Positions 6,643 through 52,813 of a stretch of 64,000 nucleotides of DNA are shown here, piece by piece (within the stretch, counting starts at the first letter, position 1; each line of letters starts with the position of its first letter). The stretch covers positions 1 to 64,000 of the forward strand of contig JARSSO010000015.1 of assembly GCA_029624765.1 (NCBI GenBank), given 5' to 3'. The translations under genes and the position numbers were made by a program. The notes under the pieces were generated by a model. The model saw only the letters and a list, made by a program, of their open reading frames with translations, was not told the DNA's origin and searched no databases. The DNA comes from Candidatus Contendibacter sp. (GTDB taxonomy: Bacteria; Pseudomonadota; Gammaproteobacteria; Competibacterales; Competibacteraceae).

Positions 6643-8457
<1,815 letters not shown>

Positions 8458-8574
8458 CTAGGCCCGACGACCGTGACTTAGTCGCGGCAGGGACAAGGAG
8501 AGAGCGCGCGCGAAAACGGAGGGATGAACGCTGACGGGAACGCGGAAGACGCGGGGTCGATACGGCTTAGACAT
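8458..8574 (-). CDS. Possible leuA leader peptide (attenuator)
   Basis: A 38-codon frame starts about 200 bp upstream of leuA and ends TAG at 8460-8458. It encodes MSKPYRPRV... with four leucines in nine residues near its end (ALSLSLPRL, including a CTA codon), followed immediately by overlapping GC-rich inverted repeats (GGCC...GGCCGCC). Leucine-rich leader peptides followed by alternative hairpins control leu genes in many proteobacteria. Against it: no leucine run, a poor ribosome binding site and no U-tract after the hairpins. Otherwise 8371-8708 holds nothing I recognise. Confidence 0.25.
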   Translation of the reverse strand: MSKPYRPRVFRVPVSVHPSVFARALSLSLPRLSHGRRA

Positions 8575-8708
8575 GGGAGCAATCCTCGAAACGGTTCATG
8601 AAGATGAACGGCGACAGCAAGACCCCGGCGCTCCTTTGGGAGGCCGGGCGACTCAGTCGCCGTTCGAACCGTTCGGTGGATTGCGCGTTCATGGATCAGT
8701 GGATGGTT

Positions 8709-8987
8709 TCAGGGCCGCTTGGAAGAGCGGTCGGGCAAGGATCTTCTGGAAGCCGGTTCACGCCCGGCATTGGCGGCGGGTCGGCCTGAACGGGGCTCGC
8801 GTCCGGCCGCCGAGCGAACCGGCTTCTTGCCGCGGGCTCGAGCCCGGACCTGCTGGATGATCACACCCGCGATGATCAGGAGCACGCCGCACAGCTTCCC
8901 CGGGATATTATCCAAGGCGAATAGCGTGATCAACCCCGCCAGCATATAGAGATAGGGCAAAAGTTCGTAGATCGGCTGCGGAATCAT
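8709..8987 (-). CDS. Small membrane protein of unknown function
   Basis: A 92-residue frame. It opens with two hydrophobic segments (about 8-25 and 30-47) separated by ALDNIPGKL, and continues with a strongly basic tail rich in Arg, Gly, Ala and Pro. I do not recognise a family. The membrane half reads like a real protein, while the tail has the composition of the local GC-rich DNA. It stands between leuA and the cytochrome b561-like gene. 8988-9193 contains no further gene I can support. Confidence 0.5.
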   Translation of the reverse strand: MIPQPIYELLPYLYMLAGLITLFALDNIPGKLCGVLLIIAGVIIQQVRARARGKKPVRSAAGREPRSGRPAANAGREPASRRSLPDRSSKRP

Positions 8988-9193
8988 GTCGTCGAGCCTC
9001 GTAACCCGTCATTTCGTAGACCCGGTTCCACTGTCCTTGGGAAAACAGGGATATCGCTTTACATAATGGTAACAGTTTCTCCCGATTTCGACAGGGATGT
9101 CGAGATTTTGTGGTGGTTGCGGGCTGCTCCAAGTTCGTCAAGAATGGAGTCGGAACGGTTTTCGTGGGCGCCCCGTTGAGCGAGGTGAGGGTT

Positions 9194-9868
9194 ATGACCG
9201 AAAAAAATGATGTAATTCAGAATATTGAAGTATGGGATTTGCCGACCCGGCTATTTCACTGGTCGCTGGTGGCGCTCGTGGCCGCGCAATGGCTGACCGC
9301 CGAGGGAAGCGGCGCCATGCATTGGCACGTCCGGGGCGGTTACGCAGTGCTGGCGCTAGTGCTGTTTCGCCTGATCTGGGGATTCATGGGCAGCGACACC
9401 GCGCGCTTCAGCGATTTCTTGCGCGGGCCAGGTGCGGCGCTGGCGTATGCCCAAGCGTTGCGGCGCGGCGAGACGCCGCGCTATCTCGGCCACAACCCGC
9501 TCGGTGCCTGGTCCATCGTGGCGATGCTGGTGTTGTTGCTGATCCAGGCCGGCACCGGATTGTTCGCCAACGACGATATCCTGATCGAGGGACCGCTGTA
9601 CGCCTGGGTGTCGAAAGGAACCAGCGACTGGTTGACCACGATCCACAGGTTCAATTTCAATCTGCTGTTGCTGGTGATCGCGGTCCATCTCTCGGCGGTG
9701 CTGTTCTACCTGCTGGTCAAGCGCGAAAATCTGATTCGTCCCATGCTGAGCGGCCGCAAGCGCCTGCCACCGGGGGAGGTTGGCCCGGCGCCGCGCATCG
9801 TCAGCCCTTGGCTGGGGTTGGCGGTTTTGGCGGTCGCGGTGGTTGCCGTCTGGCTGCTGGTGCGTTGA
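9194..9868 (+). CDS. Cytochrome b561-type membrane protein
   Basis: A 224-residue di-haem membrane cytochrome of the bacterial b561/hydrogenase-b-subunit superfamily. It starts EVWDLPTRLFHWSL, the usual first helix with a haem-ligand His, followed by MHWHVRGGYAVLALVLFRLIWG with further histidines, and later TIHRFNFNLLLLVIAVHLSAVLFY with the last ligands. Four main hydrophobic helices plus a C-terminal one are visible. Such proteins move electrons between quinones and soluble or periplasmic cytochromes. The ATG at 9194 follows GAGGTGAGG. It converges on the cytochrome c' gene, a likely partner because c'-like proteins are often coupled to b561-type cytochromes. Confidence 0.85.
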   Translation: MTEKNDVIQNIEVWDLPTRLFHWSLVALVAAQWLTAEGSGAMHWHVRGGYAVLALVLFRLIWGFMGSDTARFSDFLRGPGAALAYAQALRRGETPRYLGHNPLGAWSIVAMLVLLLIQAGTGLFANDDILIEGPLYAWVSKGTSDWLTTIHRFNFNLLLLVIAVHLSAVLFYLLVKRENLIRPMLSGRKRLPPGEVGPAPRIVSPWLGLAVLAVAVVAVWLLVR

Positions 9869-9886
9869 GCGGCGGCGAAAACGACG

Positions 9887-9910
9887 AAGGCCATGCCGAA
9901 GCATGGCCTT
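9887..9910. terminator. Bidirectional hairpin terminator
   Basis: AAGGCCATGC - CGAA - GCATGGCCTT: a perfect 10-bp stem with tetraloop between the convergent cytochrome b561-like and cytochrome c' genes. T-rich sequence follows on both strands, although neither U-tract is long. Confidence 0.65.
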
Positions 9911-9934
9911 TCGGTTCGACCAACCGCGAAACGA

Positions 9935-10402
9935 TCAATCCTTCCTGAATTCCTTATGGCAGGCCTTGCAGGTTTCGGCGGTCTTGCCGAACTGGGCCTT
10001 GATGTCCGCTTCCTTGCCGCTCTTGGCGACTTCGGCCAGCTTGGTCGCCTCCTGTTGGAAATTGGTCATCTTGGTTTGAAATTCGCTCCATTTGGTCCAG
10101 ATTTCCGGCTTGGCCTCGGTATCCTTCACCACATCCGGTCCGGAGCCCTTCGAAAAACCCTCGGGGGCCGCCTTGCTCATCATCTCGACGTACTGGGCGT
10201 GACGGGCCACGGCGGCGGCGTCGAACGGAACCTCACCCTTGACCATCGCGCCGATGGGTTTGAAATTCCAGCCGATGATCGTGTAAACGGATTTTCGGTA
10301 CTCGACCACCTCTTCTGGCTTCTGGCCAGCCGCGTTGGCGGCCGTCAGTACGCCCATGCCCAGGATTCCACCCACCAAAATCATCGCCAATTGCTTGTTC
10401 AT
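9935..10402 (-). CDS. Cytochrome c' (periplasmic haem protein)
   Basis: A 155-residue protein with a signal peptide (MNKQLAMILVGGILGMGV... cleaved after AANA, about residue 24) and a single haem motif CKACH close to the C-terminus, the hallmark of the four-helix-bundle cytochrome c'/c556 family. The mature chain begins QKPEEVVEYRKSVYTIIGWN, as usual for the family. These proteins bind NO or act as electron carriers in the periplasm. It converges with the cytochrome b561-like gene across a shared terminator. Confidence 0.92.
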   Translation of the reverse strand: MNKQLAMILVGGILGMGVLTAANAAGQKPEEVVEYRKSVYTIIGWNFKPIGAMVKGEVPFDAAAVARHAQYVEMMSKAAPEGFSKGSGPDVVKDTEAKPEIWTKWSEFQTKMTNFQQEATKLAEVAKSGKEADIKAQFGKTAETCKACHKEFRKD

Positions 10403-10500
10403 TGATAAGTATCCCCCAGATTTATGATCAAATAAGTTCGATATCGGTAATCATGCCACGGGTCCAGCATTTTGCAAGGCCAAGCTGAAACCAGGCTGAA

Positions 10501-10848
10501 TCATCGGCTTTTGTCGTGGCCTTCAAGATGCAGCGCCAGCCAGACCGTTGGCGGATCGTGGCTGGTCCATTCCACCCGATGCCGACGATGCGCCGGAATC
10601 CAGACGTAATCGCCCGGCGTCAGGATGCGCGCGGCATCCTCGTCGGCGAAGCGCAATCCAGCCCGACCCTGCAACAGCGTCACCCATTCGTCTTCATCCT
10701 GGTCGTACCATTCGCTGGGCGGAGTGGCGTGACCGATGGAAACGATGCGTTCCAGCCGACAGCCACCAGTGCGCAAAAGAGTGTCGAACCGTTCCGCCGG
10801 CAGGGTGGTCGGAATACCAGCGAACAAATGGCCCGCATCGACGATCAT
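10501..10848 (-). CDS. Cupin-domain protein
   Basis: A 115-residue single cupin barrel. The first cupin motif is visible as PPSEWYDQDEDEWVTLLQGRAGLRF (residues 43-67), with Glu and Asp where metal-binding histidines often stand; the second is LTPGDYVWIPAHRRHRVEW (76-94) with His87, His90 and Trp94. It resembles the small cupins described as phosphoribosylaminoimidazole-carboxylase-like, whose substrate is unknown. The ATG at 10848 follows GGAG. It is divergent from the MaoC-phosphate acetyltransferase gene with about 110 bp between. Confidence 0.75.
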   Translation of the reverse strand: MIVDAGHLFAGIPTTLPAERFDTLLRTGGCRLERIVSIGHATPPSEWYDQDEDEWVTLLQGRAGLRFADEDAARILTPGDYVWIPAHRRHRVEWTSHDPPTVWLALHLEGHDKSR

Positions 10849-10959
10849 GGGATCGAACTCCAACGGTAGTGAATGTTGCGGTGCAAAATGAGCTAGAATT
10901 GAAGTGGTTATCGAATCGCTGAACCGCGCCTCGCAACGCCCGCCTTGAGAGGAATCGCC

Positions 10960-12354
10960 ATGCATGCCGACACCATCACCAATCGCACTTTCGCCGAAAT
11001 CGAGATCGGCGAGAAGGCCAGCCTGACCCGCACCCTGAAACCGCTCGACATACAACTGTTCGCCACGCTGACCGGCGACCTGAATCCCACCCACCTGGAC
11101 GAGAAATTCGCTCGCCAGTATCAGGCCGGACAACGGGTTGGCCACAGCATGTGGGCGGCCAGCCTGCTGTCGGGGCTGTTCGGCTGCCAGTTGCCGGGGC
11201 CGGGCAGCGTGTTCGCCGCCCAGTCGTTTCGTTACCTGCGGCCGGTGCATCTGAACGACACCCTGACCCTGACCGCCGAGGCGCGGGAAAAACACCCGGA
11301 CCGCCGAATCGTGGTATTCGCCTGCGCCGCCATCAACCAGCAGGGCGAGACCGTGATGGAAGCGACGGTCGAGGTGATCGCGCCGACGGAGAAAATCACC
11401 ACGCCGCAGCCGGAGCTGGCCTCGATGGCGATTCAAACCCACGACAAATTCAATCGGCTGATCGAGTATTGTGCTCCGTTGCCCGACATCGTCACCGCCG
11501 TCGCCCATCCCTGCGACGAATCCTCGCTCACCGCCGCGGTGGAGGCGGCGGAGGCCAGTCTGATCCTGCCGATCCTGGTCGGGCCGGCGGACAAGATTCG
11601 CGCCACGGCGGACAAATACCAGATCGATGTCGGTCGCTTTGAGATTGTGGATGTCCCGCACAGCCACGCCGCCGCCGCCAAGGCGGTGGAACTGGTGCGC
11701 AATGGCCAGGCGGAGGTATTGATGAAGGGGAGCCTGCACACCGACGAACTGATGCACGAGGCCATGCGCGCCGAGACCGGGATTCGCACCGAACGCCGGA
11801 TCAGCCACGTGTTCTGCATGGACGTGCCGTCCTATCACAAGCTGCTGCTGGTCACCGACGCCGCGATCAATATCTACCCCGCGCTCGACGACAAGCGCGA
11901 CATTTGCCAGAACGCCATCGATCTGGCCCGGATTCTGGGGATCGAGCGCCCCAAGGTGGCGATTCTGTCGGCGGTGGAAACCATCAGCGTCAAGATCGCC
12001 TCGACCACCGAGGCTGCCTCGCTGTGCAAGATGGCCGACCGGGGACAGATCGTCGGCGGGCTGCTGGATGGGCCGCTGGCGATGGACAACGCCATCAGCA
12101 AGGTGGCGGCGGAGATCAAGGGGATCAAATCCGAGGTGGCGGGCGACGCCGACATCCTGCTGGTGCCCGATCTGGAAGCCGGCAACATCCTGGCCAAGCA
12201 ACTCACCTTCATGGCGCAGGCCGACGCCGCCGGCATCGTGCTGGGCGCGCGGGCCCCGATCATTCTGACCAGCCGCGCCGACAACGTTCGCACCCGGATG
12301 GCGTCCTGCGCGGTGGCGGTACTGATCGCTCACACCCGGCGCGGCAGCCGGTAG
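10960..12354 (+). CDS. Bifunctional enoyl-CoA hydratase (MaoC) / phosphate acetyltransferase
   Basis: A 464-residue fusion. Residues 1-140 form a MaoC hot-dog hydratase: FATLTGDLNPTHLDE carries the catalytic Asp/His pair and GHSMWAASLLSG follows. Residues 150-464 form a phosphate acyltransferase of the Pta/Ptb type (LPILVGPADKI, LMKGSLHTDELMHEAM, TERRISHVFCM, LVPDLEAGNILAKQL). The architecture is known from many proteobacteria and would link acyl-CoA and acyl-phosphate pools. No acetate kinase gene lies beside it. A TTG five codons upstream is open, but the ATG at 10960 follows GAGAGGA at the right distance. Confidence 0.88.
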   Translation: MHADTITNRTFAEIEIGEKASLTRTLKPLDIQLFATLTGDLNPTHLDEKFARQYQAGQRVGHSMWAASLLSGLFGCQLPGPGSVFAAQSFRYLRPVHLNDTLTLTAEAREKHPDRRIVVFACAAINQQGETVMEATVEVIAPTEKITTPQPELASMAIQTHDKFNRLIEYCAPLPDIVTAVAHPCDESSLTAAVEAAEASLILPILVGPADKIRATADKYQIDVGRFEIVDVPHSHAAAAKAVELVRNGQAEVLMKGSLHTDELMHEAMRAETGIRTERRISHVFCMDVPSYHKLLLVTDAAINIYPALDDKRDICQNAIDLARILGIERPKVAILSAVETISVKIASTTEAASLCKMADRGQIVGGLLDGPLAMDNAISKVAAEIKGIKSEVAGDADILLVPDLEAGNILAKQLTFMAQADAAGIVLGARAPIILTSRADNVRTRMASCAVAVLIAHTRRGSR

Positions 12355-24397: not shown

Positions 24398-24487
24398 CTT
24401 TCGCGCTTGAGAGCTTTCATTCCTTATGGCGGTTTGAGTCAATCCAGGACTGACCTGCTCCATCCGCCAGCCAAAAATTTTTCGAAA

Positions 24488-25150
24488 TTAAAAAAGGGGT
24501 AATCGGTCGCTGGTAATCGGTAACAGTTGAGGAGAGGGGCCGGCATATACGCTTTTGGGTTTCGTGTCCTGGCCGATGACCGCGCCTGCCCCGACAACGC
24601 TTGCCTCGCCGATGCGCACCTGGTCCCGGACGGTGGCGCTTGCCCCCAGGAAAGCGTAGGGTTCGACGATGACGCTACCCGCCAGCACCACGTTGACAGC
24701 CAGATAGCAGTGGTCGCCGACGACGGTATGGTGGCCGACGATGCTGGCCGTGCCGACGTGGACGTTATTGCCCAGTTTGGCGTAGGGTTGGATAACACAG
24801 CCGTCTCCGATCAGACAGTTTTCGCCTATTTCGACCTCGGGCCAAACGACTGCTTTCGAACTGACGTAACTGATGAAACGATAACCGTGCTCTTTTGCTT
24901 GTCCATAGCGCTCGGCTCTTATTCGATTGATTTTGACGTGACCGACCGCGATGAACAGCCGGTATCTATCCGGTGGATAGTGTTTTACCACGCGCTCAAA
25001 AGGAATCACGGGCAGATCAAGCAACCGGTCGGCCTCGATAAGATGCCCATCCACTGTAAAAGCGACAACCTGGTGAGATGAATCGTGCTTGAGGCGGGCA
25101 AAGGCCAGTTTGGCCAGTTGGCCATTACCATAAATGACTATTTGGCTCAT
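24488..25150 (-). CDS. NeuD-like left-handed-beta-helix acyltransferase
   Basis: A 220-residue NeuD/PglD-type protein. An N-terminal Rossmann-like part (VIYGNGQLAKLAFARL, residues 4-19) is followed by hexapeptide repeats from about residue 95 (GENCLIGDGCVIQPYAKLGNNVHVG, then VGHHTVVGDHCYLAVNVVLAG), ending in VGAGAVIGQD. Relatives transfer acetyl or other acyl groups to amino or hydroxyl groups of sugars. His139/His140 in IVGHHTVVGDH are candidates for the catalytic base. It is the last gene of the unusual minus-strand cluster, 62 bp after the A-PCP-deaminase gene, and could transfer the carrier-bound acid made there. Base composition is lower in GC than the housekeeping block to its left. Confidence 0.8.
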   Translation of the reverse strand: MSQIVIYGNGQLAKLAFARLKHDSSHQVVAFTVDGHLIEADRLLDLPVIPFERVVKHYPPDRYRLFIAVGHVKINRIRAERYGQAKEHGYRFISYVSSKAVVWPEVEIGENCLIGDGCVIQPYAKLGNNVHVGTASIVGHHTVVGDHCYLAVNVVLAGSVIVEPYAFLGASATVRDQVRIGEASVVGAGAVIGQDTKPKSVYAGPSPQLLPITSDRLPLF

Positions 25151-25212
25151 GGCTGTGCATTCTTTGGTGAGAAATTAATTGCTTATGAAAACCAGGGGTT
25201 GGATAAATTCAA

Positions 25213-27528
25213 TTACAATCCGATGGTTTTTATTTTGAACCAGGTTTCGAAAACTTCCAGCATCTCGTTACGTAAGAGATCGGGAATCAAGGTGATGGAG
25301 CGATCCAGCATCCGCCGCATCGTGACGCAGGGCACGGTTGGTTGGCTGAGGCCAAAATTGACTTCGTCTTCCATTCGGGCACTGTAGATGACGGTGGTAA
25401 TATTGGCCCAGATGCAGGCGGTCAAACACATACTGCAAGGTTCGCACGTGGAATAAATGGTGCAATCGGATAAATCCATCGTGCCTAGTGCCCGACAGGC
25501 GTGGCGAATCGCCTCCAGCTCGGCATGGGCAGTGGGGTCTACATGCTGCCAGATTGCATTGTGCACGGAAGCGATTACGGTATCGCCCTTGACAATGCAG
25601 GCGGCATAGGGTGGGTGGCCCTCCTGGATCGCTTCCCTGGCCTGATGAATAGCCAATCGCATGAATCGTTCATGCTTTTCCTGTTCGACCAATTGTGGAC
25701 TGATACTGCTGGGAGATTGGTTGTCTTCCGCGTGAATGGTCAATCGCCGCTCGATGATTTCCAGCAATCTGGCGAAGGTCGGGTTCTCGAAAACATCCCG
25801 CATGGTGATGTCGATCTTCAATCTCTCTTCCAGTCGCGTCACCAGTTTGAGCGCCAATAACGAATAGCCACCCAACTCGAAGAAATCATCCTCCAAACCA
25901 ATCGAATCGATGTTGAGCAATTCTTGCCATGCGTTTAAGAGGACCTGCGCGACGGAGTCAGGAGAAGAAACTGATTCGGCAACTTTATCCTCGATGTCGG
26001 TGGTCGATGGTTCAATCGCGGATAACGCCTCAAAGTCCAGCTTTCCATTGGGGGTCAGTGGGAAGTGATTCACGAACATGAAACAGTCGGGAATTGCGTA
26101 GTGTGGCACAATCTCGCTAAGATAACGGTTCAAGGAGCAAGGGAACCCGTTCGGCTGCTTTGGAATTAAATAGGCAGCCAAATGGATCGAACCATCGGAA
26201 TCCGCGTATGGAGTAACCACGGCATCGTCGATTTGTGGATGCTTCATCAGGGCCGCTTCGATATCGCCAGGCTCGACACGATAACCACGCACCTTGATTT
26301 GCCGATCCGCTCGGCCGATGAATTCAATATCGCCATCGGGTCGTCGCCGTGCTAGATCGCCAGTTCGATATAAGCGACTGTCACCCAACGGGATGGAGAA
26401 ATCCGGAATAAAGCGCGCCGAGGTCAATTCCGGCTGATTCAGGTAGCCACGCGCCACGGCTGGCCCGCCAACGTATAGCTCCCCAACCTGCCCCGTGCCC
26501 ACGGGATTTTGGTTCGAATCCAGTAGATGAAGTTCAACATCGGGTAAGGGAACGCCAATGTTACTGCGGTTTTCTTTCTTGAGATCGGCCTTTACCATGC
26601 GTCGGAACGCAATCTCACCGGCGGTTTCGGTTAATGCATACATATTGGCCAGCAATGGTTTCTCATCTCCAAACCGCGTCAGCCAGGATTCCAGAATCCA
26701 AGATTCCAAGGGTTCGCCACTGAAAGCCACGAGTCGTAATGACGATAAATCGACCGCGGCCGATGCGGTCGTTGCCGCGCGGGCCAGGGATCGGAAAGCC
26801 GAGGGTGTTTGGCTGAGTACGGTAACCTGCTCGGACGCTATCAGCCTGAGCAGATTTGACGGAGCCATCGTCACTTCCGGCGGGACGACCACCAGACGAC
26901 CGCCGTGGGCCAGCGCGCCCCACATCTCCCAGATCGAAAAACCAAAGGCATGGGAATGAAAGAGAGTCCAAATATCGTTCCGGTCGAATCGGAGGTGTCG
27001 ACTCATCGCCGGAAAAAGGCGGGCAACGTTGGCGTGCGTGACCATGACGCCCTTGGGGCGACCGGTTGAGCCGGAAGTGTAGAGAACGTACATCAGATCG
27101 TCTGATTTAACTTCAAAATCAATATCTTGTTCCGATTGCCGGGCAAGCGCCAAATCGTCGAGGTTGACGCGGATGGCATGGTGAACGAGACCAATGTCGA
27201 GGGTTGTCTGAGTAATGAAAATGTTCGGGTTGCTGTCCTTGACGATAAAGGAACGCCACTCGGCCGGGTAATGAGGATCCACCGGCACGTAGGCCGCGCC
27301 AGCCTTCAGGATGCCTATCAAACCGATGATGGCCAGTTCCGAACGCTCCGTACCAAGACCCACCAGAATTCCGGGACCGGCGCCTAGTTGCCGCAGGTAG
27401 CGAGCCACCTGGTTGGCGCGTCGGTTTAGTTGGCCGTAGGTCAAGGAACGGTCTTGGCATCGAATAGCGATGACATCTGGAAAATGTTGGGCCTGGCTTT
27501 CAAAAAGACGATGCAGGCAAGGGTACAT
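25213..27528 (-). CDS. Adenylation domain - carrier domain - guanine-deaminase-like domain fusion
   Basis: A 771-residue protein. Residues 1-500 are an NRPS-type adenylation domain: A3 YTSGSTGRPKG (150-160), A4 region HAFGFSIWE (193-201), A5 NMYALTE (295-301), A8 GRADRQIKVRGYRVEPG (405-421) and A10 lysine in PNGKL (Lys496). Residues 530-595 are a carrier protein with the phosphopantetheine Ser556 in LGGYSLL. Residues 615-765 form a zinc deaminase like guanine/tRNA-adenosine deaminases: HAE (668-670, Zn His and catalytic Glu) and CEPCSMC (695-701, two Zn Cys). No condensation or thioesterase domain is present. Gly196 stands where amino-acid-activating domains carry Asp235 (PheA numbering), suggesting a substrate without a free alpha-amino group. 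Neighbours are a QueD-like enzyme, a P450, an aminotransferase and an acyltransferase. Confidence 0.9.
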   Translation of the reverse strand: MYPCLHRLFESQAQHFPDVIAIRCQDRSLTYGQLNRRANQVARYLRQLGAGPGILVGLGTERSELAIIGLIGILKAGAAYVPVDPHYPAEWRSFIVKDSNPNIFITQTTLDIGLVHHAIRVNLDDLALARQSEQDIDFEVKSDDLMYVLYTSGSTGRPKGVMVTHANVARLFPAMSRHLRFDRNDIWTLFHSHAFGFSIWEMWGALAHGGRLVVVPPEVTMAPSNLLRLIASEQVTVLSQTPSAFRSLARAATTASAAVDLSSLRLVAFSGEPLESWILESWLTRFGDEKPLLANMYALTETAGEIAFRRMVKADLKKENRSNIGVPLPDVELHLLDSNQNPVGTGQVGELYVGGPAVARGYLNQPELTSARFIPDFSIPLGDSRLYRTGDLARRRPDGDIEFIGRADRQIKVRGYRVEPGDIEAALMKHPQIDDAVVTPYADSDGSIHLAAYLIPKQPNGFPCSLNRYLSEIVPHYAIPDCFMFVNHFPLTPNGKLDFEALSAIEPSTTDIEDKVAESVSSPDSVAQVLLNAWQELLNIDSIGLEDDFFELGGYSLLALKLVTRLEERLKIDITMRDVFENPTFARLLEIIERRLTIHAEDNQSPSSISPQLVEQEKHERFMRLAIHQAREAIQEGHPPYAACIVKGDTVIASVHNAIWQHVDPTAHAELEAIRHACRALGTMDLSDCTIYSTCEPCSMCLTACIWANITTVIYSARMEDEVNFGLSQPTVPCVTMRRMLDRSITLIPDLLRNEMLEVFETWFKIKTIGL

Positions 27529-27537
27529 GCGGGGATT

Positions 27538-27552
27538 CCATTAAATTAATGG
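27538..27552. promoter_or_regulatory. Perfect palindrome upstream of the A-PCP-deaminase start
   Basis: CCATTAA-A-TTAATGG (plus strand) lies 10 bp upstream of the start codon at 27528, in the 89-bp gap after the QueD-like gene. It could be an operator or a small mRNA hairpin next to the ribosome binding site. No gene-sized frame exists in the gap. Confidence 0.4.
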
Positions 27553-27617
27553 TTAGGCGCAAAAAGAGTTGTTGAATTCCTTTTCCTTGATCGATGGTTA
27601 TTCTTCTGGTGATCATG

Positions 27618-27971
27618 TCACGGACGGTATTCCGCCCAAGTTGTGGGCGTTTCACTGACGCAAACGGCCACCGTCTGGGGCCAGATGGCTTTTGCTCTTT
27701 GGAAAAGGTAGTAAGCCAGGTTCTCGGCGCTGGTGGGTCCAGGAATGATTTCATTTAAATGACGGTGATCCAATTCATTGTCGATAATAGCCTTGAATGA
27801 CCGAAGGTCGCCGTAATCGACCACAAAACCCGTCTGATCCAATAGTTCGGCCGCAAGAATTAGCTCGACGATATAATTATGCCCATGCAAGCGGCTGCAA
27901 GGATGACTGTCCGGTAATCCTTCTATGATATGACTGGCACTGAAATAAAATTTTTTCTTGATGGTAAACAT
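27618..27971 (-). CDS. 6-pyruvoyltetrahydropterin synthase / QueD-like enzyme
   Basis: A 117-residue T-fold enzyme. Zinc ligands are His14 (FSASH) and His29/His31 (HGH). Cys25 in CSRLHGHNY is the catalytic cysteine in the CxxxHGH spacing of bacterial QueD, which makes 6-carboxytetrahydropterin from dihydroneopterin triphosphate. LDHRHLN (68-73), PTSAENLA (79-85) and SETPTTWAEY with the pterin-anchoring Glu107 complete the active site. No queE, queC or folE lies nearby, and the gene is embedded between a P450 (10 bp upstream) and the adenylation protein, so a role in a special product seems likelier than queuosine. A second, housekeeping QueD may exist elsewhere. Confidence 0.88.
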   Translation of the reverse strand: MFTIKKKFYFSASHIIEGLPDSHPCSRLHGHNYIVELILAAELLDQTGFVVDYGDLRSFKAIIDNELDHRHLNEIIPGPTSAENLAYYLFQRAKAIWPQTVAVCVSETPTTWAEYRP

Positions 27972-27981
27972 GTCTTTTGAA

Positions 27982-29205
27982 CTAGATTGCTTTTTTGAAC
28001 CGCACTGGCAGGGAATCGACGCCGCGCAAGAAAATGCTGTCGCGCCACTTCAGCGTATCGTCGACCAGGGCGATATCCTGGGTTAGGGCGAGCAAGGCGC
28101 CGATGGCAATTTGTGCTTCAGCGCGAGCGATACCAGCTCCCAGACAGGAATGGCGGCCTCCGCCAAAACCAAGATGGTCATTATCCTCGCGGGTGATATC
28201 TAAAATATCCGGTTCGACAAAACGACCAGGGTCACGGTTCGCGGAACCGAGCAGCAGGAAAACAGGATCACCAGCGGCGATGAGGCGATCGTGCCACTGC
28301 ATGGTCTCCAGCGCGGTACGACCTACTACTTGCGCCGGGGTGTCGTAGCGCAACAGTTCCTCCACCGCGCTCTTGATCAGCGTGGGCTGGTTTTTTAGCA
28401 TACGCAGTTGCGCCGGATTTTTGAGCAATGCGAGCATCCCGTTACCGATCAGATGGACCAATGTTTCTTCTCCATTGGCAAATAGCAGGATGCAGGTGGC
28501 GATCAGCTCATCGTCGCCAAGTTGATCAAGTTCATCGCGAACGTGAATCAGGCTACTAATGACATCATGTTGCGGTCGACGACGACGGTGAACGACAAGT
28601 TCACGGAGATAGTCGCTGAAGTCCAAAATCGCCTGATTGAGGCGCTGGTAAACTTCGGCGGAGGGCATTGGCGAAAAGATGTAGAAAAACCAGCTGGACC
28701 ATTCCTTGAGCAAACGACGGTCCTGATTAGGGATACCCAAAATTTCGGCGATGACGAAAACCGGCAAAAAGCTGGCGAAATCCTTGACAATATCCATCTC
28801 TCCCCGATCGAGCAATGGATTCAGCACTTGATTGACAATTTGCCGAATTCTTCCACGAAAATCGGCCACCAGCGTTTCGGTGATCACTTTTGCCAACAGG
28901 CGGCGCAAGCGGGTATGATCGGGAGGGTCGAGAAAAGGCAGCAGATGGTCCGCTACTTTCGCTGCTGGAAATCGTTGACGATTGGATGACGAATGCACGG
29001 AATAACGCGACGGACGGGAACTCAGTCGAGAATCCCGCAATGCCGTCGCTACATCCGCGTAGCGAGAGATAACCCACATGCCGTAGGGGCTACGGTGGAC
29101 AGGGTCTTTTTCGCGAAGATGTCGGTAAAACGAATAGGGTTCGGCCAAGAAGTCGGGAGAGAATGGATTGAATTCGAGTGTATTTTTTGGCGATGTCGTC
29201 TTCAA
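27982..29205 (-). CDS. Cytochrome P450
   Basis: A 407-residue soluble bacterial P450. The haem loop FGGGRHSCLGAGIARAE contains the ligand Cys354; ExxR is E283-L-L-R286; DPPDHTRLRRLL (about 92-103) is the usual helix-C motif. In helix I the normal AGHETT is NGEETL: the acid-threonine pair needed for oxygen activation is kept, but the first Ala is Asn and the last Thr is Leu. P450s coded beside adenylation-carrier proteins often oxidise the carrier-bound substrate, as NovI does with NovH. No ferredoxin gene is adjacent. It is followed by the QueD-like gene after 10 bp and preceded by the aminotransferase after 57 bp. Confidence 0.93.
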   Translation of the reverse strand: MKTTSPKNTLEFNPFSPDFLAEPYSFYRHLREKDPVHRSPYGMWVISRYADVATALRDSRLSSRPSRYSVHSSSNRQRFPAAKVADHLLPFLDPPDHTRLRRLLAKVITETLVADFRGRIRQIVNQVLNPLLDRGEMDIVKDFASFLPVFVIAEILGIPNQDRRLLKEWSSWFFYIFSPMPSAEVYQRLNQAILDFSDYLRELVVHRRRRPQHDVISSLIHVRDELDQLGDDELIATCILLFANGEETLVHLIGNGMLALLKNPAQLRMLKNQPTLIKSAVEELLRYDTPAQVVGRTALETMQWHDRLIAAGDPVFLLLGSANRDPGRFVEPDILDITREDNDHLGFGGGRHSCLGAGIARAEAQIAIGALLALTQDIALVDDTLKWRDSIFLRGVDSLPVRFKKAI

Positions 29206-29262
29206 TTTTAGCCTGCGTATTAATTGTCGGATAACGTCTGCTTGTCCGCTGCGGTCCAGAAG

Positions 29263-30375
29263 TCAATCGGTTTCGGCAATCATGCCGATGATCGCATCCA
29301 TCTCCTCATCCTTCAAGGCCGGATAAATCGGTAGACACAATACTTTTTTTGCCACGTCGCGCGCGATCGGCAGGTGGGTGGGCGCGGCGCTGGGCAGATT
29401 TCGATACATGGGAAATTCACTGATCAGCGGATAAAAGTAACGTCGCGCATGAATGCCGCGCTCCCGCAGTCGATGGTAAAGCCCGTCGCGGGAGAGAGGA
29501 TAATCGGATTGGACAAGGATTGGAAAGTAGGCATGGTTCCAAACGATGTCGGCCGGCAACGGGGGGCATTCGATACCGGGGATGTGCTCAAGCCTCCGGC
29601 GATAGAATGTGTCGATTTCTCGACGCCGGCGAATGGCGGCGTCGACATGACGCAATTGCAAAAGGCCGAAGGCCGCTTGCAACTCGCTCATTTTACCATT
29701 GATACCCGTTGTCAGCACCGTCACCTCATCGGCGACGCCAAAATTCTTGAGCAAGTCGATCCGTCGTTTGGTTTCGGCGTCGGGGCAGACGATGGCTCCA
29801 CCTTCGCAGGTGGTGAACACCTTGGTCGCGTGAAAGCTCAGCACCGAAAGGTCGCCATGCCGGGTTATGTCGCCGCCGGAGTCGCGCACGGCGAAGGCAT
29901 GGGCCGCGTCGTAGATCACCTTGAGGTCGTGGACGTCGGCGACGCGCTGAATGGCATTCACATCGCAAGGCCGCCCGTAAACGTGCACCGGAAGAATCGC
30001 CGTGGTACGGGGCGTGATCGCCGCCTCGACCGCTTTAGGGTCGAGGTTGAGCGAGTTGGGATCGATGTCGGCGAAAACCGGTGTGATTCCACCCCACCAC
30101 AAGGCATGGGTGGTGGCCACGAACGAAAATGGGGTCGTAATGATCTCGCCGGACAACCCCAGCGCTTTCAACGCCGTCATGAGCGCCAGGGTGCCACTGG
30201 CGAACAGGGCAATGTGTTCGACGCCCAGATACTCGGCCAGGGCCATTTCCAGCCGCCAGTGGAAAGGTCCGGCGTTGGTCAGCCTCCGGGTTTTCCAGAT
30301 TTCCTCAAGATAGGGAATGAACTCTTCCAGGGGCGGCAGGAAAGGTTGGGTAACCGTGATGAGCCGGTTACTCAC
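29263..30375 (-). CDS. DegT/DnrJ/EryC1/StrS family sugar aminotransferase
   Basis: A 370-residue pyridoxal-phosphate enzyme of the type that aminates keto-sugars on nucleotides. LFASGTLALMTALKALG forms the cofactor phosphate cup, VYDAAHAF (written IYDAAHAF here) holds the ring-binding Asp, and LSFHATKVFTTCEGGAI contains the Schiff-base Lys185. The GTG start at 30375 overlaps the stop of the upstream SPINDLY gene (GTGA), so the two are co-translated. Sugar aminotransferases often pair with NeuD-like acyltransferases to make N-acylated amino sugars, and such a gene closes this cluster. No dehydratase supplying the keto-sugar is in the window. Confidence 0.9.
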   Translation of the reverse strand: MSNRLITVTQPFLPPLEEFIPYLEEIWKTRRLTNAGPFHWRLEMALAEYLGVEHIALFASGTLALMTALKALGLSGEIITTPFSFVATTHALWWGGITPVFADIDPNSLNLDPKAVEAAITPRTTAILPVHVYGRPCDVNAIQRVADVHDLKVIYDAAHAFAVRDSGGDITRHGDLSVLSFHATKVFTTCEGGAIVCPDAETKRRIDLLKNFGVADEVTVLTTGINGKMSELQAAFGLLQLRHVDAAIRRRREIDTFYRRRLEHIPGIECPPLPADIVWNHAYFPILVQSDYPLSRDGLYHRLRERGIHARRYFYPLISEFPMYRNLPSAAPTHLPIARDVAKKVLCLPIYPALKDEEMDAIIGMIAETD

Positions 30376-32762
30376 GGGGTTACCTCGAAACGTTCGGGCG
30401 GCAGACCCGCGCACCAGCGCTCCCACATGATCCGCATCGCTTTCTCGAAGTTGCGCGCCATGGTTTCCGGGCGGTACAGCGCGTTGTTGTTGAAGCGCTC
30501 GCGCAACCCGGCTCGCAGCATCGCCAGTTCGGATAGATGGGTTGTCCAATGGGCAGCGCGAGAAACGAATTCGTCTTCGGTGGATGTAACCCATTCGGGC
30601 AATCCGAGACGCCAAAGGACACGGGCGCTTTGATAATGCACCCGACTCGGTCCCGTCAGGGTCAACACCGGCACGCCCATCCAGAGCGCGTGGTTGGTGG
30701 TGGTGCCTCCCGTGTAGGGGAAGGTGTCCAGCATGATATCCACTTCGTGGTGCAATTGCAGATAGTCCCGCAGCCCGACCCGGGGGTGAAATTCCAGCCG
30801 GTCGGGATCGATCCCGTGACGAGCGAAAGTTTCGGTGAAACTTGCCTTGAGGCCGTCGTCGGTGACGGAACCGATCAGCATCCGTGCGGTGGGCAGCGCG
30901 CGCAGCACCCTGCTCCACAAGGCGATAACCTGGTGACCCAGTTTGTTGGTGCGATTGAAACTGCCAAAGGTCACGAATCCCCGGGCGAGAGCCGGCAGCG
31001 CATTGATCTCCGGAGCGCTCGCCGCGGGCTCGAACAAGGTGGCCGCCGGTAGACAGGCAAATTTTTCGGTGTACAGATGATCGAACGTTCTCGGTGGCGC
31101 GCTGAGATCGGTCAACTTGTAATCCATGGCGCGCAGCCCCGTCGTTCCCGGATAGCCGATCCAGGTGACTTGCACCGGAGCCGGTTTGCGGGCGAAGGTT
31201 AACAAACGATGGTGCGAGGTGTGGCCGGAAAGATCGAACAGGATGTCAATGCCATCGGCGCGGATGCACTCGGCCAGTTCCTGGTCGGACAGTCGCTCGA
31301 CCTGCCGCCAGTGGCGTACCAGATTCTTGAGGCGGGTCGTCACCGCGTCTTCTTGAAAGCGATTGTTGTAGACATGCAGCTCAAGTTTGGTTTGATCCAG
31401 CACTCGCCACACCGGCTCGATGAAATACGCCACCGAGTGGTTGTACAAATCGGCGGAAACGAATCCCAGCCGCAACGTTCGGTCCAGCGTTCGGTCGTTG
31501 CCATGGGGCCGCCATTGCGCGCGCAAGGGGGTCTCGAACCGCTCGCCAAAGGCCAGATGTTCGGCGAAGACCACCGCGGGATCGACATTTTCCGTATGCG
31601 ACAAGCAGAACAATACACCGCTGAAGGCCATCGCATCGTCGGGTTCGAGTTCGAGCGCGCGGCGATAGCTGGCCATCGCCTCGCCGGTCTGCCCCAGGTC
31701 GTGCAGCGCATTGCCCAGGTTGCCATGAATCTGGGCGTGATCGGGTTTAAGTTCGAGCGCCTGGCGGTAGCTGGCGACGGCTGCTTGAAGTTGCCCCAAA
31801 CCCTTGAGAGCGTTACCCAGGTTGTTGTGAATCAGGGCATGATCGGATTTAAGTTCAAGCGCGCGGCGGTAGCTGGTGACCGCCTCTTGCAGGTGTCCCA
31901 GTTCGCTGAGGGAAAACCCCAGGTTATTGTAGGCTTCGGCGTAGTCGGGCTTTAGCGCCAGCGCGCGCCTGGCGTGGCGGCAAGCCTCCTCGAAATGGCC
32001 CAGCGCGTGGGCGCAGGCGGAATAATCGAGCCAAATCTCCGCGCGCGCCGGGTCAATTTCGACGCCGCGCGCGTAACACGGCAGCGCTTTATCCGGTTGC
32101 CCCAGTCGGGCAAACAGCGCCGCCAGGTCGTACCATATTTCGATGTCGTTTGGGCACGACGCGCTGGCTTCCTCCAGCGCCGCCACCGCTTCAGGATCGC
32201 GACCTTGCATCGACAGCGCCACGCCGAGCAGGCGCCAGATCTTGCCGTGGTCGGGGTATTGCCTTGACAACGTTCGCGCGGCGGCTTCCATCTCGGCATG
32301 ACGGCCCGCCTTGAGCAGAACGAACAGGGGCGTCACCGGATCGGCTCTTCTGTCCGGGGGAGGGACCGAGGGACTCGCCGAGGCGCCGGCCCGCGCGGCC
32401 GCAATCTGTTTCTGGAGCACCCGCGCGCTTTCGCCCCCCAACCCACGGTCGATGGCCGTTTGCAGCGTGGCGTGAGCCTCTTCGATGCACCCGGCGGACA
32501 ACAGTCCCCGCGCATACGAAAGCCAGTACTGGCCATTGGCGGGGTCGATGTCCAACGCTTCCTTGAGATGGGGCAACCCTTCCTCCACCCTGCCGGTCTG
32601 CATGGCCAGCACCCCCAGATTGTGGTGGGCGTCCGGTTGGTTGGGCTGGTGGGTGAGAAAAAGTCGGTAAAGCCTTTCCGCGCCTGGCAGTCGGCCGGCT
32701 TGATGATGGGTGATCGCGTGCCCTAGGAGGTTTTCCGGGTCGCTGTCGGTGGAAGAGAGCAT
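30372..32762 (-). CDS. TPR / SPINDLY-type O-GlcNAc-transferase-like protein (first copy)
   Basis: A 796-residue protein. The N-terminal half carries about ten TPR units, the clearest being three near-identical ones (AEAYNNLGFSLSELGHLQEA, ALIHNNLGNALKGLGQLQAA, AQIHGNLGNALHDLGQTGEA). The C-terminal half from about residue 420 is the GT41 catalytic region: LRLGFVSADLYNHSVAYF, ILFDLSGHTSHHRLLTFARKPAPVQVTWIGYPGTTG, FGSFNRTNKLG and LDTFPYTGGTTTNHALWMGVPV. Bacterial members glycosylate proteins such as adhesins, or work in glycan gene clusters. The ATG at 32762 follows AGGA; an open frame upstream is ignored. It heads the run leading to the aminotransferase, P450 and A-PCP-deaminase genes. Confidence 0.9.
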   Translation of the reverse strand: MLSSTDSDPENLLGHAITHHQAGRLPGAERLYRLFLTHQPNQPDAHHNLGVLAMQTGRVEEGLPHLKEALDIDPANGQYWLSYARGLLSAGCIEEAHATLQTAIDRGLGGESARVLQKQIAAARAGASASPSVPPPDRRADPVTPLFVLLKAGRHAEMEAAARTLSRQYPDHGKIWRLLGVALSMQGRDPEAVAALEEASASCPNDIEIWYDLAALFARLGQPDKALPCYARGVEIDPARAEIWLDYSACAHALGHFEEACRHARRALALKPDYAEAYNNLGFSLSELGHLQEAVTSYRRALELKSDHALIHNNLGNALKGLGQLQAAVASYRQALELKPDHAQIHGNLGNALHDLGQTGEAMASYRRALELEPDDAMAFSGVLFCLSHTENVDPAVVFAEHLAFGERFETPLRAQWRPHGNDRTLDRTLRLGFVSADLYNHSVAYFIEPVWRVLDQTKLELHVYNNRFQEDAVTTRLKNLVRHWRQVERLSDQELAECIRADGIDILFDLSGHTSHHRLLTFARKPAPVQVTWIGYPGTTGLRAMDYKLTDLSAPPRTFDHLYTEKFACLPAATLFEPAASAPEINALPALARGFVTFGSFNRTNKLGHQVIALWSRVLRALPTARMLIGSVTDDGLKASFTETFARHGIDPDRLEFHPRVGLRDYLQLHHEVDIMLDTFPYTGGTTTNHALWMGVPVLTLTGPSRVHYQSARVLWRLGLPEWVTSTEDEFVSRAAHWTTHLSELAMLRAGLRERFNNNALYRPETMARNFEKAMRIMWERWCAGLPPERFEVTP

Positions 32763-32895
32763 GGTGGTCCTGGCAATGTCTTTGGCCCAAGTGTCCTCAT
32801 GATCGCCGGCGCGGCGCGTCCTCGGTGCTGGCTGATTGGAGGACTGGATTCGAGGCGCCCCAGCATGGGTCAAATTCCCGGGTTTGCCAAGAAGT

Positions 32896-49454: not shown

Positions 49455-52385
49455 TCAGGTCGTACTTGGCAGCGGCGCGACCCACAACGGCGCGGGTGGC
49501 AACCCCTGAACATGGCGCTCCCACATCATCTCATACGCCCGTTCGAGATGCCGGGCGAAACGCTCGGTATCGAATAGCGGCGCGCGGAGACGATTGTAGG
49601 CCAGTTTTTCCCGGAGCGTCGCCAGTTCGTCCGGTCGGGTGGCCAGCCGCACCGCCAATTCCTCGTAGTCTTCCAGCGAGTTCGTGATGAGATCCGGCAT
49701 TCCGACCGCGTGCAGCAGACTGGCGGCCACGCGCGCCGGGAACGTCTCGCCGATGCAGGTCAGCACCGGCAGACCGGTCCACAAGGCGTCGCTGGCGGTG
49801 GTGTGGGCGTTGCAGAGGCGGGTGTCGAGAAACATGTCGGCCAGCCGGTGGCGTTCCAGATGCCGGGGCTTGGGCAAGTATTCGGCGAAAAGCAGCCGTT
49901 CACCCCTCACGCCGTGCGCGGCGGCGGTCACGCGCAGTCGCTCCCGCGCTTCGTGATCATTGGCGTACAGCCAAAGCACCGAGCCTGGCGTTCGGTCCAG
50001 AATGCGCATCCAGACCGCGAACATGACCGGTTCAAGTTTCTGGATTTGATTGAAACCGCAGAAGACGAAACCGTGTTCCGGCAAGCCTTGATCGACCCGC
50101 CGGACGCCAGTTTCGGCGATTGCCTGTTTCCGATCATTGACCTGATAGCATTCCGGCAGATAAACCGGCTGCTCGGTAAAACAGGGCCGAAGCTCTTCCG
50201 GTAAAACCACCGAATCCGCGATGATGTAGGGAATGAACGGCGCTCCCAGACTGCCTGGATAGCCCAGATAGCTGGCTTGCAGGGGGGCAGGCCGCAGGGC
50301 CAGGATTTCCGGGCGGGCGCCAGCGGTATATCCCATCAAATCGATCAAAATATGAACGCCATCGGCGTTGATCCGGGTAGCGGCCTCGGCATTGCTCATG
50401 CCGGTCAGGTCCACGAACCGATCCGCGCCAGCTTTGATTCGCTGGGAGTAGGCGCTACCGTCATCCTTGCCCAAGGCGTAAATGCAGATTTCGAAACGAT
50501 TGCGATCATGCAGGTCGAACAAGCCGCCGATCAAATGCCCGGTTGGATGATTGCGAAAATCCGCCGACAGGTATCCGATCCGGAGCCGCGCCACCACCGG
50601 CTCCGGATTCGTCCATTTCAGTTTTTGCCGCATCGCCGCGATGCCGGACGCCAGAAACTGACCATGGCTGTGCGCGATAGCCGCCGTCAATTCAGGCGCG
50701 AACGGTAGAAAGGTCGTTTTGAAAGGAGGTATCGGCGCCGGCTTTCCCTCGGCCAGGCATTGCCGGATCAACGTTTTCGCATGTTCGATGACCGCATCGT
50801 ATTGTTCCCACTCGCAATGCTCCAGCAGCCGGCCCAACGTGAACGCAAGGTATTCCGCTCGAGGATCCAGCTCCGGCATCAGGGCATCAGGTGGTGTTCC
50901 ATCCACCTGATAACGCTGTCTGAACGCCAGAAAGGCTTCTTCATCCAGCGCGCGGGCGGTTGCAAACGCCTGTCGTGCTTCTTCAAACCGTTCCAGTCCC
51001 GCCAACGCCCCACCCCTGTTGGCGTATGCCTGCCAATTCCGCGGGCCACGCTCCAGCAGTTTATCGGTTCTCGCCAAAGCCTCGGCAAAGCGATGCAAAC
51101 CATTGAGGGCCGCGATGCCATTGATGGTGGCTTGGACATGGTCCGGTTCCAGCGTCAGGGCGCGTTCGGCGGCCACCCAGGCGTCGGTGTAACGTTCCTT
51201 CGCCAAGAGCAGCGCTGTTTTCGCTGTCCATAATTGCGCCTGGTTGGGATCTGCGGCAATCGCTTGCTCGATCCAGGCCCATGCGACTTCCCACTGCCGG
51301 CGACTCCATAGAATCTCGGCCTTGAGCACGACCGCCTCGGAAGAGTTGGTGCTGGACGCCAGCACCGCGTCCACGCGTGATTCCGCTTCGGTAAGGCGTT
51401 TCAGTTCCATCAAGGCTCGGGCCACGCCGAGTTGTAACGCCGGGCGGCCAGGATATCGAAGCAATCCGGCCTGTCCTTCAGCCACCACATCGGTGTAGCG
51501 CCGCAAACCCAGCATGGCTTGCATCTTCAACTCCAAGGCGTCGGGGCTGGAAGTATCTCGCGCCAACGCGTTCCGCGCAGTCGCGAGCGCCTCCTGAAAA
51601 TCTCCCAACCTCAACAAGGCTAGTGCTCTGTTGATCAGCCCCTTGAGATGACCGGAATCGAGTTGCAACAGCCGATCCGCGGTGGCCAGCGCTTCACGTG
51701 GCCGCCGCAAGCCCAGCAACGCCGCTGTTCGATTCAGCAGGGCCACCATCGAATCCGGTCGAATCTCCAAGGCGGCATCGGCGGCTTGCAAGGCTTCCTC
51801 GGGGCGGCCGAGGGCAACCAACACCGAACATCGATTGATCAACGCATCGTGGTGCCGAGGTTCGCTCGCCAGCAATTGATCGAAGGCTTCCAACGCCGCC
51901 CGAGGTTGACCCATGCGATACAAAGCAATTCCTCGGTTCAGACGAGCGGGCGGATCGGTTGGCTCGATCCGCAACGCCTGTTCCAACAACGGCAGCGCCT
52001 CGGCGAAACGTCCCAAATTCAACAATGCGCTCGCCTTGCTGTTGAGCGCCTTGAGATCGTCCGGCATTAGCGCCAGAGCGGCATCAGCCGCCCGCAGGGC
52101 ATTGTCGTATCGACCCATGTGGGTCAAGGCCGCCGCCGCGATCAGATAGGGGCGCGGTTGGGATGAATCCAGGGCCAATGCGCTCGCGGCCGCCTCGACA
52201 CATTCCAAAAAGCGTTGTTGACGCAACAGAGCGATTGCCAGCCCGGTCCAGGCCGTGACGTTTTCCGGATGGTTCCGGCAAAGCTCCAAATACAGTTCGG
52301 CGGCCTCGCCATGATGGCCCGTTTCGATCAGTCCATCAGCCCGCTCCAGCGGGGATTGCGGTTTGAGGGAATCGCTATCGGCCAT
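49455..52385 (-). CDS. TPR / SPINDLY-type O-GlcNAc-transferase-like protein (second copy)
   Basis: A 976-residue protein. The first 520 residues are about fourteen TPR units rich in Ala and Leu (for example NVTAWTGLAIALLRQQRFLECV and DPPARLNRGIALYRMGQPRAAL). The catalytic GT41 half follows: LRIGYLSADFRNHPTGHLIGGLFDLHDR, ILIDLMGYTAGARPEILALRPAPLQASYLGYPGS, FCGFNQIQKLEP and LDTRLCNAHTTASDALWTGLPVL. Its best-conserved residues differ from the first copy (for example YTAGARPEI versus HTSHHRLLT), so they are not recent duplicates. It directly precedes wzm, which ties it to polysaccharide or glycoprotein synthesis. Confidence 0.9.
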   Translation of the reverse strand: MADSDSLKPQSPLERADGLIETGHHGEAAELYLELCRNHPENVTAWTGLAIALLRQQRFLECVEAAASALALDSSQPRPYLIAAAALTHMGRYDNALRAADAALALMPDDLKALNSKASALLNLGRFAEALPLLEQALRIEPTDPPARLNRGIALYRMGQPRAALEAFDQLLASEPRHHDALINRCSVLVALGRPEEALQAADAALEIRPDSMVALLNRTAALLGLRRPREALATADRLLQLDSGHLKGLINRALALLRLGDFQEALATARNALARDTSSPDALELKMQAMLGLRRYTDVVAEGQAGLLRYPGRPALQLGVARALMELKRLTEAESRVDAVLASSTNSSEAVVLKAEILWSRRQWEVAWAWIEQAIAADPNQAQLWTAKTALLLAKERYTDAWVAAERALTLEPDHVQATINGIAALNGLHRFAEALARTDKLLERGPRNWQAYANRGGALAGLERFEEARQAFATARALDEEAFLAFRQRYQVDGTPPDALMPELDPRAEYLAFTLGRLLEHCEWEQYDAVIEHAKTLIRQCLAEGKPAPIPPFKTTFLPFAPELTAAIAHSHGQFLASGIAAMRQKLKWTNPEPVVARLRIGYLSADFRNHPTGHLIGGLFDLHDRNRFEICIYALGKDDGSAYSQRIKAGADRFVDLTGMSNAEAATRINADGVHILIDLMGYTAGARPEILALRPAPLQASYLGYPGSLGAPFIPYIIADSVVLPEELRPCFTEQPVYLPECYQVNDRKQAIAETGVRRVDQGLPEHGFVFCGFNQIQKLEPVMFAVWMRILDRTPGSVLWLYANDHEARERLRVTAAAHGVRGERLLFAEYLPKPRHLERHRLADMFLDTRLCNAHTTASDALWTGLPVLTCIGETFPARVAASLLHAVGMPDLITNSLEDYEELAVRLATRPDELATLREKLAYNRLRAPLFDTERFARHLERAYEMMWERHVQGLPPAPLWVAPLPSTT

Positions 52386-52402: not shown

Positions 52403-52813
52403 TCAACGCTGGGGAGTCTGGTGATACCACTCACCCTCGATCAGTACCCAGTCCTCGGTAAGGGTTTGCGGCATCCAACCGAGCGTACCCACGGCCACCT
52501 GGCCCTGAAGCGTGACCGTGGCATTGTCGCCCTCAATCTTGGTTTCCACGATCTTGACTTCCCGTACCGGTAATCCCCCCAACTGTTGATATTTGTCGGG
52601 GGTCAACCAACCGCCAGGTTGCGCCGCGGATTCCAAACCGTAAACCGTATGCACGTCATTGATGGATCGCGCGGTCCAGTAACGCTGAACCCGCTGTTCA
52701 AGCGATTCTCCAGCGACTGTGGCGGCGCCCGACACGGCCAGCGCCACGATCGATGCCATCAACGCCCGTTTTCCGAACCGGACAATCTCCTTACTGCTTG
52801 GCTGGATTCGCAT
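52403..52813 (-). CDS. Small secreted protein of unknown function
   Basis: A 136-residue protein with an N-terminal signal (basic start, then ALMASIVALAVSGAATVAG). The mature part LEQRVQRYWTARSINDVHTVYGLE followed by strands ending in EDWVLIEGEWYHQTPQR resembles small SnoaL/NTF2-like or lipoprotein-type domains that sense or scaffold, but I cannot assign a family. It overlaps the end of the upstream propeller-parvulin gene by 23 bp, so the two are probably co-expressed. Confidence 0.7.
   Translation of the reverse strand: MRIQPSSKEIVRFGKRALMASIVALAVSGAATVAGESLEQRVQRYWTARSINDVHTVYGLESAAQPGGWLTPDKYQQLGGLPVREVKIVETKIEGDNATVTLQGQVAVGTLGWMPQTLTEDWVLIEGEWYHQTPQR

Follow-up and report, generated by a model that had tools for sequence, protein, structure and literature searches.

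An unusual adenylation-carrier-deaminase fusion protein encoded in a variable gene cassette at the border of a polysaccharide locus

The stretch of DNA analyzed here, referred to as the window, comprises 64,000 nucleotides of a Candidatus Contendibacter genome. Its minus strand carries, in order of transcription, genes for a DegT aminotransferase, a cytochrome P450 (P0003), a QueD/PTPS-like enzyme (P0002), a fusion protein (P0001), and a NeuD-type acyltransferase (P0004) (Table 1). The initial annotation had placed P0001 at the correct coordinates, leaving out the strand; it missed the QueD/PTPS-like enzyme and the P450 encoded next door, and, as regards the setting, the variable slot beside the polysaccharide locus.

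Table 1. Features of the cassette and its border in the window
Feature	Coordinates	Strand	Basis
NeuD/PglD-type sugar acyltransferase P0004, 220 aa, candidate trans release enzyme	24488..25150	-	TIGR03570 180 bits
A-T-deaminase fusion protein P0001, 771 aa	25213..27528	-	single open frame, ATG start; Pfam domains
Deaminase domain of P0001, residues 617-771; Q729 at 25342-25344	25216..25680	-	PF00383 3.7e-24; alignments; AF2 model
Carrier (PP-binding) domain of P0001, residues 528-590; Ser556 at 25861-25863	25759..25947	-	PF00550 1.9e-15; GGYS motif
Adenylation domain of P0001, residues 9-500	26029..27504	-	PF00501 + PF13193; aligned to Thr1 5n9w
QueD/PTPS-like enzyme P0002, 117 aa	27618..27971	-	PF01242 5.6e-30
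Cytochrome P450 P0003, 407 aa, haem motif FGGGRHSCLG	27982..29205	-	PF00067 8.6e-21
DegT/DnrJ/EryC1 sugar aminotransferase	29263..30375	-	PF01041 3.6e-102; best NCBIfam model DesI, below cut-off
Variable cassette slot, metB-like stop to DegT stop	24398..29262	.	blastn of window vs congener loci

P0001 is one uninterrupted frame in which four Pfam domains follow one another: AMP-binding (9e-88, residues 9 to 363), AMP-binding_C (8e-9, 423 to 496), PP-binding (1.9e-15, 528 to 590), and dCMP_cyt_deam_1 (3.7e-24, 617 to 716). All four matches exceed their gathering cut-offs and are far from chance. Among the motifs that had been reported as intact, A3 reads YTSGSTGRPKG (150 to 160), A10 is the NGK at 494, the phosphopantetheine serine S556 lies within GGYS (553 to 556), and the deaminase carries HAE at 668 to 670 and CxxC at 698 to 701. 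The protein contains the elements of an A-T loading didomain, namely, an AMP-binding core with A3 and A10 and a carrier with its serine. Condensation, thioesterase, and reductase domains were not detected in P0001 by Pfam, in agreement with the initial annotation, which had expected release to depend on a partner in trans; a candidate is present in the NeuD-type acyltransferase encoded just downstream. A MafB19-type polymorphic toxin was considered as an identity for P0001 and rejected: the PF14437 match overlaps the stronger PF00383 match, the N terminus is an NRPS module, and no secretion leader of the toxin type was found.

It is very improbable that adjacent A-T and deaminase genes were falsely joined here by a sequencing or assembly error. 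The fusion comes from a single genome, and a TTG codon at 613 lies near the point where free-standing relatives start. Against this, the frame is open across the linker of ~26 residues, and inspection of residues 590 to 640, which include the 600-to-620 interval previously singled out for a possible stop or frameshift, revealed neither; the possible starts at 613 and 623 have no Shine-Dalgarno-like sequence in front of them, and a start at 623 would fall inside the first helix of the deaminase model. An identical copy (100%) was recovered from a 128-kb contig of the genome to which the window belongs; this is the same assembly and hence not independent proof. Adenylation, carrier, and deaminase domains almost certainly form a single polypeptide.

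Genome samples of 190 relatives, 398 members of the phylum, and 385 and 369 members of the class (~1,300 in total, partly overlapping and all from the same phylum) yielded no second carrier-deaminase fusion, and in its own genome P0001 is the only full-length match to itself. A plasmid collection yielded no such fusion, its NRPS matches reaching at most 89% coverage at ~26% identity and not being judged residue by residue. Pattern scans for P0001, which detect close relatives only, gave one NRPS-type locus (27%) among genome contigs and no relative among viral contigs. One Gloeocapsopsis NRPS match that extends to query residue 640 was set aside as an ordinary NRPS by annotation, with no deaminase annotated. 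The literature on NRPSs with a deaminase domain or on guanine deaminase fusions held nothing relevant. The fusion is seen as one instance in one genome. The earlier observation that a deaminase sits behind a carrier in one polypeptide is borne out, and the architecture was found nowhere else in the ~1,300 genomes or the plasmids.

The A domain is Thr-type. Over the pocket region its closest solved relative is Thr1 (5n9w, 7.5e-49), and CytC1 is also among the closest structures (2e-40); unlike these, the A domain of P0001 is fused to a carrier and a deaminase. Pocket residues were taken from alignments with Thr1, ObiF1, and CytC1. The Thr1 segment FDFSVWE reads FGFSIWE in P0001, the α-amine-binding Asp235 (GrsA numbering) being replaced by Gly196 (26941-26943), a change that is seen against all three comparison proteins. 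Relative to Thr1, the pocket differs by D235G, N278S, V299A, G301S, V330G, and H331E, with E305 of P0001 occupying position 331; F236, W239, and M322 are the same, and the catalytic Lys517 is present as NGK. The initial annotation was right about motifs A3 and A10 and missed the loss of the α-amine-binding aspartate. With Asp235 changed to glycine and differences at five further pocket positions, the domain probably takes something other than an ordinary α-amino acid. Glycine at position 235 occurs in α-hydroxy-acid A domains.

The AlphaFold2 model of the deaminase domain (pLDDT 90) matches guanosine deaminase best (7dbf_D, Z 23.6, 1.6 Å over 151 residues), followed within 1 to 2 Z units by TadA and NE0047 structures. 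The domain resembles the guanine and guanosine deaminases (B. subtilis GuaD 1wkq, Arabidopsis GSDA 7dbf, and NE0047) in its fold, in its zinc site (ligands H668, C698, and C701), in its catalytic glutamate (E670), and in the equivalents of GuaD Asn42 and Trp92, which are kept in a 62-row alignment. Unlike these enzymes, it has a carrier in front and belongs to a separate clade, and two further features are missing. The second acid, Asp114 of GuaD, is Gln729 in P0001, where all other Trp92-bearing homologues in the 62-row table, L026 excepted, have Asp or Glu. The C-terminal capping tyrosine (Tyr185 of GSDA) is absent; P0001 ends IKTIGL, and the aligned GSDA end at 185 meets a glycine. Nearly all guanine-deaminase-type rows among the 62 have a C-terminal tyrosine, the GuaD row used being short at its end. 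The earlier label "guanine-deaminase-like" is therefore apt for the fold and the wider family and not for Asp114 or the terminal tyrosine. Because both have been lost, free guanine is an unlikely substrate, as judged from the sequence.

The Tyr185 tail of guanosine deaminase shuts the active site and restricts the size of the pocket (PMC9739398), and the loss of the capping tyrosine would therefore suit a large, carrier-tethered substrate, or else mark decay. That the fused domain is active on a tethered substrate, as a putative on-carrier deaminase, is our tentative reading. Without the second acid, the domain might be inactive. An inactive or nearly inactive deaminase, kept as a structural or docking part, would leave P0001 as an A-T loading didomain acting with the P450, as for β-hydroxylated amino acids, and would account for the loss of both the second acid and the tyrosine and for a long branch (1.46 changes per column) in the deaminase tree. 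A dead domain would, however, be expected to lose the zinc ligands, the catalytic glutamate, and the Asn42 and Trp92 equivalents, all of which are kept, and confidence in the modeled fold is high; we consider an inactive domain unlikely.

In the tree, the P0001 deaminase forms a clade (99/99) together with four deaminases from phages and three from family f54, its closest single relatives being the phage proteins. No PTPS gene was found beside the phage deaminases in their records, which may be fragments. In three genera, all of family f54, the deaminase gene is followed by mobA, mobB, and moeA (L133:8174-11128, L132:5532-8500, and L131 ~8000-11100), as confirmed by Pfam in L133. These mob-linked deaminases are GuaD-like, with GF-x-Glu replacing GFDD, and an Atg22-type MFS gene lies upstream in at least two of the genera. 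Since members of the clade sit in mobA-mobB-moeA operons, the clade has a link to pterin cofactor genes that does not depend on the QueD neighbor in the window. Guanine catabolism through xanthine dehydrogenase could be another reason for a molybdenum-cofactor neighborhood; no xanthine dehydrogenase was recognized in the one fully annotated neighborhood of the three. All close relatives found appear free-standing, as would be expected if a pterin, a deazaguanine, or a nucleoside were deaminated as a free small molecule ahead of loading and the fusion served co-expression only. The pocket-closing tail is kept in the clade, however, and lost in the fused copy, and we regard action on a free substrate as improbable.

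P0002 keeps the active-site Cys, Asp-His, and Glu and the zinc-ligand His when aligned to E. coli QueD (4ntm) and is ~60% identical to alphaproteobacterial QueD; it scores 85 bits with the TIGR03367 equivalog model, the cut-off being 89.25. Unlike queuosine QueD, it has neither queC nor queE beside it in the operon, and QueC is absent from its own genome, where a search gave only a partial match of 23.8 bits in a 633-aa frame. QueE was not convincingly found in the genome (21.3 bits against a cut-off of 206, which the model passes in only 1 of 14 controls), its absence being less certain than that of QueC. In view of the absence of QueC and the lack of a convincing QueE, P0002 probably lies outside queuosine synthesis. 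Though QueC is absent, the genome encodes two more PTPS homologues (L019:1486-1893 and L020 ~1501-1884), whose neighbors resemble coproporphyrinogen oxidase and glycosyltransferase genes. Their existence means that PTPS-like proteins in this genome need not make 6-carboxytetrahydropterin (CPH4).

The best plasmid relatives of the P450 P0003 are Nostoc proteins, 51% and 45% identical. On the Nostoc plasmids (L036:5780-9191 and L037:5646-9197), a FAAL-carrier gene directly precedes the P450 gene and PKS/NRPS genes follow it, which suggests, by analogy, a carrier-bound substrate for P0003. P0004 exceeds the TIGR03570 cut-off (180 against 160.8 bits), as expected of a NeuD/PglD N-acyltransferase, and shares 43% identity with the second of the two NeuD proteins encoded at this slot in the congeneric genome G005. 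Known NeuD/PglD enzymes use acetyl-CoA; the putative donor for P0004 would instead be a carrier-bound acyl group.

The four slot genes have GC contents of 47.5-55.5%; several of the genes around them (such as eno, pyrG, the metB-like gene, and that of a glycosyltransferase) lie at 64-69%. By blastn, two congeners, G004 and G005, conserve the metB-like gene at 91-92% DNA identity and the DegT gene with the polysaccharide genes that follow it at 84-86%; the stretch between the metB-like and DegT stop codons holds different genes in each. That of G005 (L054:7773-12789) encodes a NeuD, a TauD dioxygenase, a PylC-like-N protein, WbqC, a second NeuD, and BKACE, and that of G004 (L053:14141-16609) encodes one unassigned product besides a PylC-like-N protein and a ferredoxin-like frame. 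NeuD-type acyltransferases are present in two of the three slot gene sets seen (window and G005). Promoter and terminator scans gave no excess over shuffles, and repeats of the kind that flank a mobile element were not apparent. We propose that the slot is a site of exchangeable cassettes and that the cassette in the window was acquired horizontally.

Glycosyltransferases, a Wzm/Wzt-type transporter, and two TPR-GT41 proteins are encoded upstream of the cassette, which places it at the margin of a polysaccharide locus. The two TPR proteins are large, their GT41 domains are of the O-GlcNAc-transferase type, and their genes (30372-32870 and 49455-52385) flank the polysaccharide genes; a 671-aa protein joining FG-GAP repeats to a PPIC-type rotamase domain is encoded at 52791-54806. 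A dTDP-glucose 4,6-dehydratase is encoded in the genome (476.9 bits, cut-off 365.1). Given that exchangeable gene sets, two of three with a NeuD, adjoin a fixed aminotransferase, acyl decoration of an amino sugar fits the slot. The slot genes probably constitute an acyl-decoration cassette, a reading that is fairly well supported, and we conclude that the architecture of P0001 is real and unusual and belongs to a variable cassette that probably serves glycan decoration. Acyl decoration makes the NeuD-like enzyme a candidate for the release step missing from P0001, a role that we give to P0004 with only slightly less than even confidence.

In the simplest reading that uses every gene, P0001 would serve a horizontally acquired acyl-decoration cassette by loading and tailoring its acyl group, a pterin acid. 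P0002 would produce this acid, most simply CPH4, from the folate intermediate dihydroneopterin triphosphate; as the cassette is without a GTP cyclohydrolase, FolE would need to be supplied by the chromosome. The A domain would adenylate the pterin carboxylate and load it onto Ser556, and the Glu at position 331 could hold the 2-amino-4-oxopyrimidine edge. In CPH4 the carbon that bears the carboxyl group is flanked by a nitrogen that is not a basic amine, and the molecule would be compatible with a pocket that carries D235G. The fused deaminase, its capping tail gone, would then remove the 2-amino group by hydrolysis while the ring is tethered, turning the pterin into a lumazine type and attacking the same ring edge as in guanine. 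After oxidation of the carrier-bound group by the P450, the NeuD-type acyltransferase would transfer the acyl group onto the nucleotide-linked amino sugar that the DegT aminotransferase makes, the end product being destined for the surface polysaccharide. As the best explanation of the locus, pterin-acid decoration is put forward tentatively, and a pterin-type acid as the A-domain substrate is likewise possible rather than probable. The fully specified outcome, in which a carrier-tethered pterin carboxylate becomes a lumazine-type acyl group that a NeuD-type transferase passes to an amino sugar, giving a pteridine-decorated surface glycan, is rather unlikely to be right in every part.

The same cassette logic would hold with a different acyl group, an α-hydroxy, α-keto, or other acid bearing an amidine, a guanidine, or a heterocyclic amine, on which nitrogen group the deaminase would act, the QueD-like enzyme supplying something else. 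D235G says only that the α-amine is not read, and a glycine there fits α-hydroxy-acid A domains; the A-domain scaffold is of the Thr type, and P450s often hydroxylate carrier-bound acyl groups, as the FAAL-carrier gene beside the relatives of P0003 recalls. A non-pterin acid would, however, leave the intact QueD-like gene in the operon of a genome without QueC unexplained, and we find it somewhat unlikely.

For the pterin-acid pathway, a close parallel is the Photorhabdus pepteridine pathway, in which a carrier-domain protein and a PTPS homologue likewise share one cluster (PMC5384830). That cluster has a GTP cyclohydrolase, a PTPS, a reductase, and a T-C-pyruvate dehydrogenase E2 fusion, whereas the operon described here has the A-T-deaminase, the P450, and the NeuD; by Pfam, neither a GTP cyclohydrolase nor a T-C-E2 protein is encoded in it, and the word "deaminase" does not occur in the pepteridine paper (PMC5384830).

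The deaminase subclade also draws attention to the deaminase in the mobA-mobB-moeA operons of three genera. If the pterin-acid pathway is correct, nucleobase-type deaminases would join the NRPS tailoring domains, pterins would become NRPS building blocks, and an NRPS module would serve glycan decoration instead of the synthesis of a peptide.
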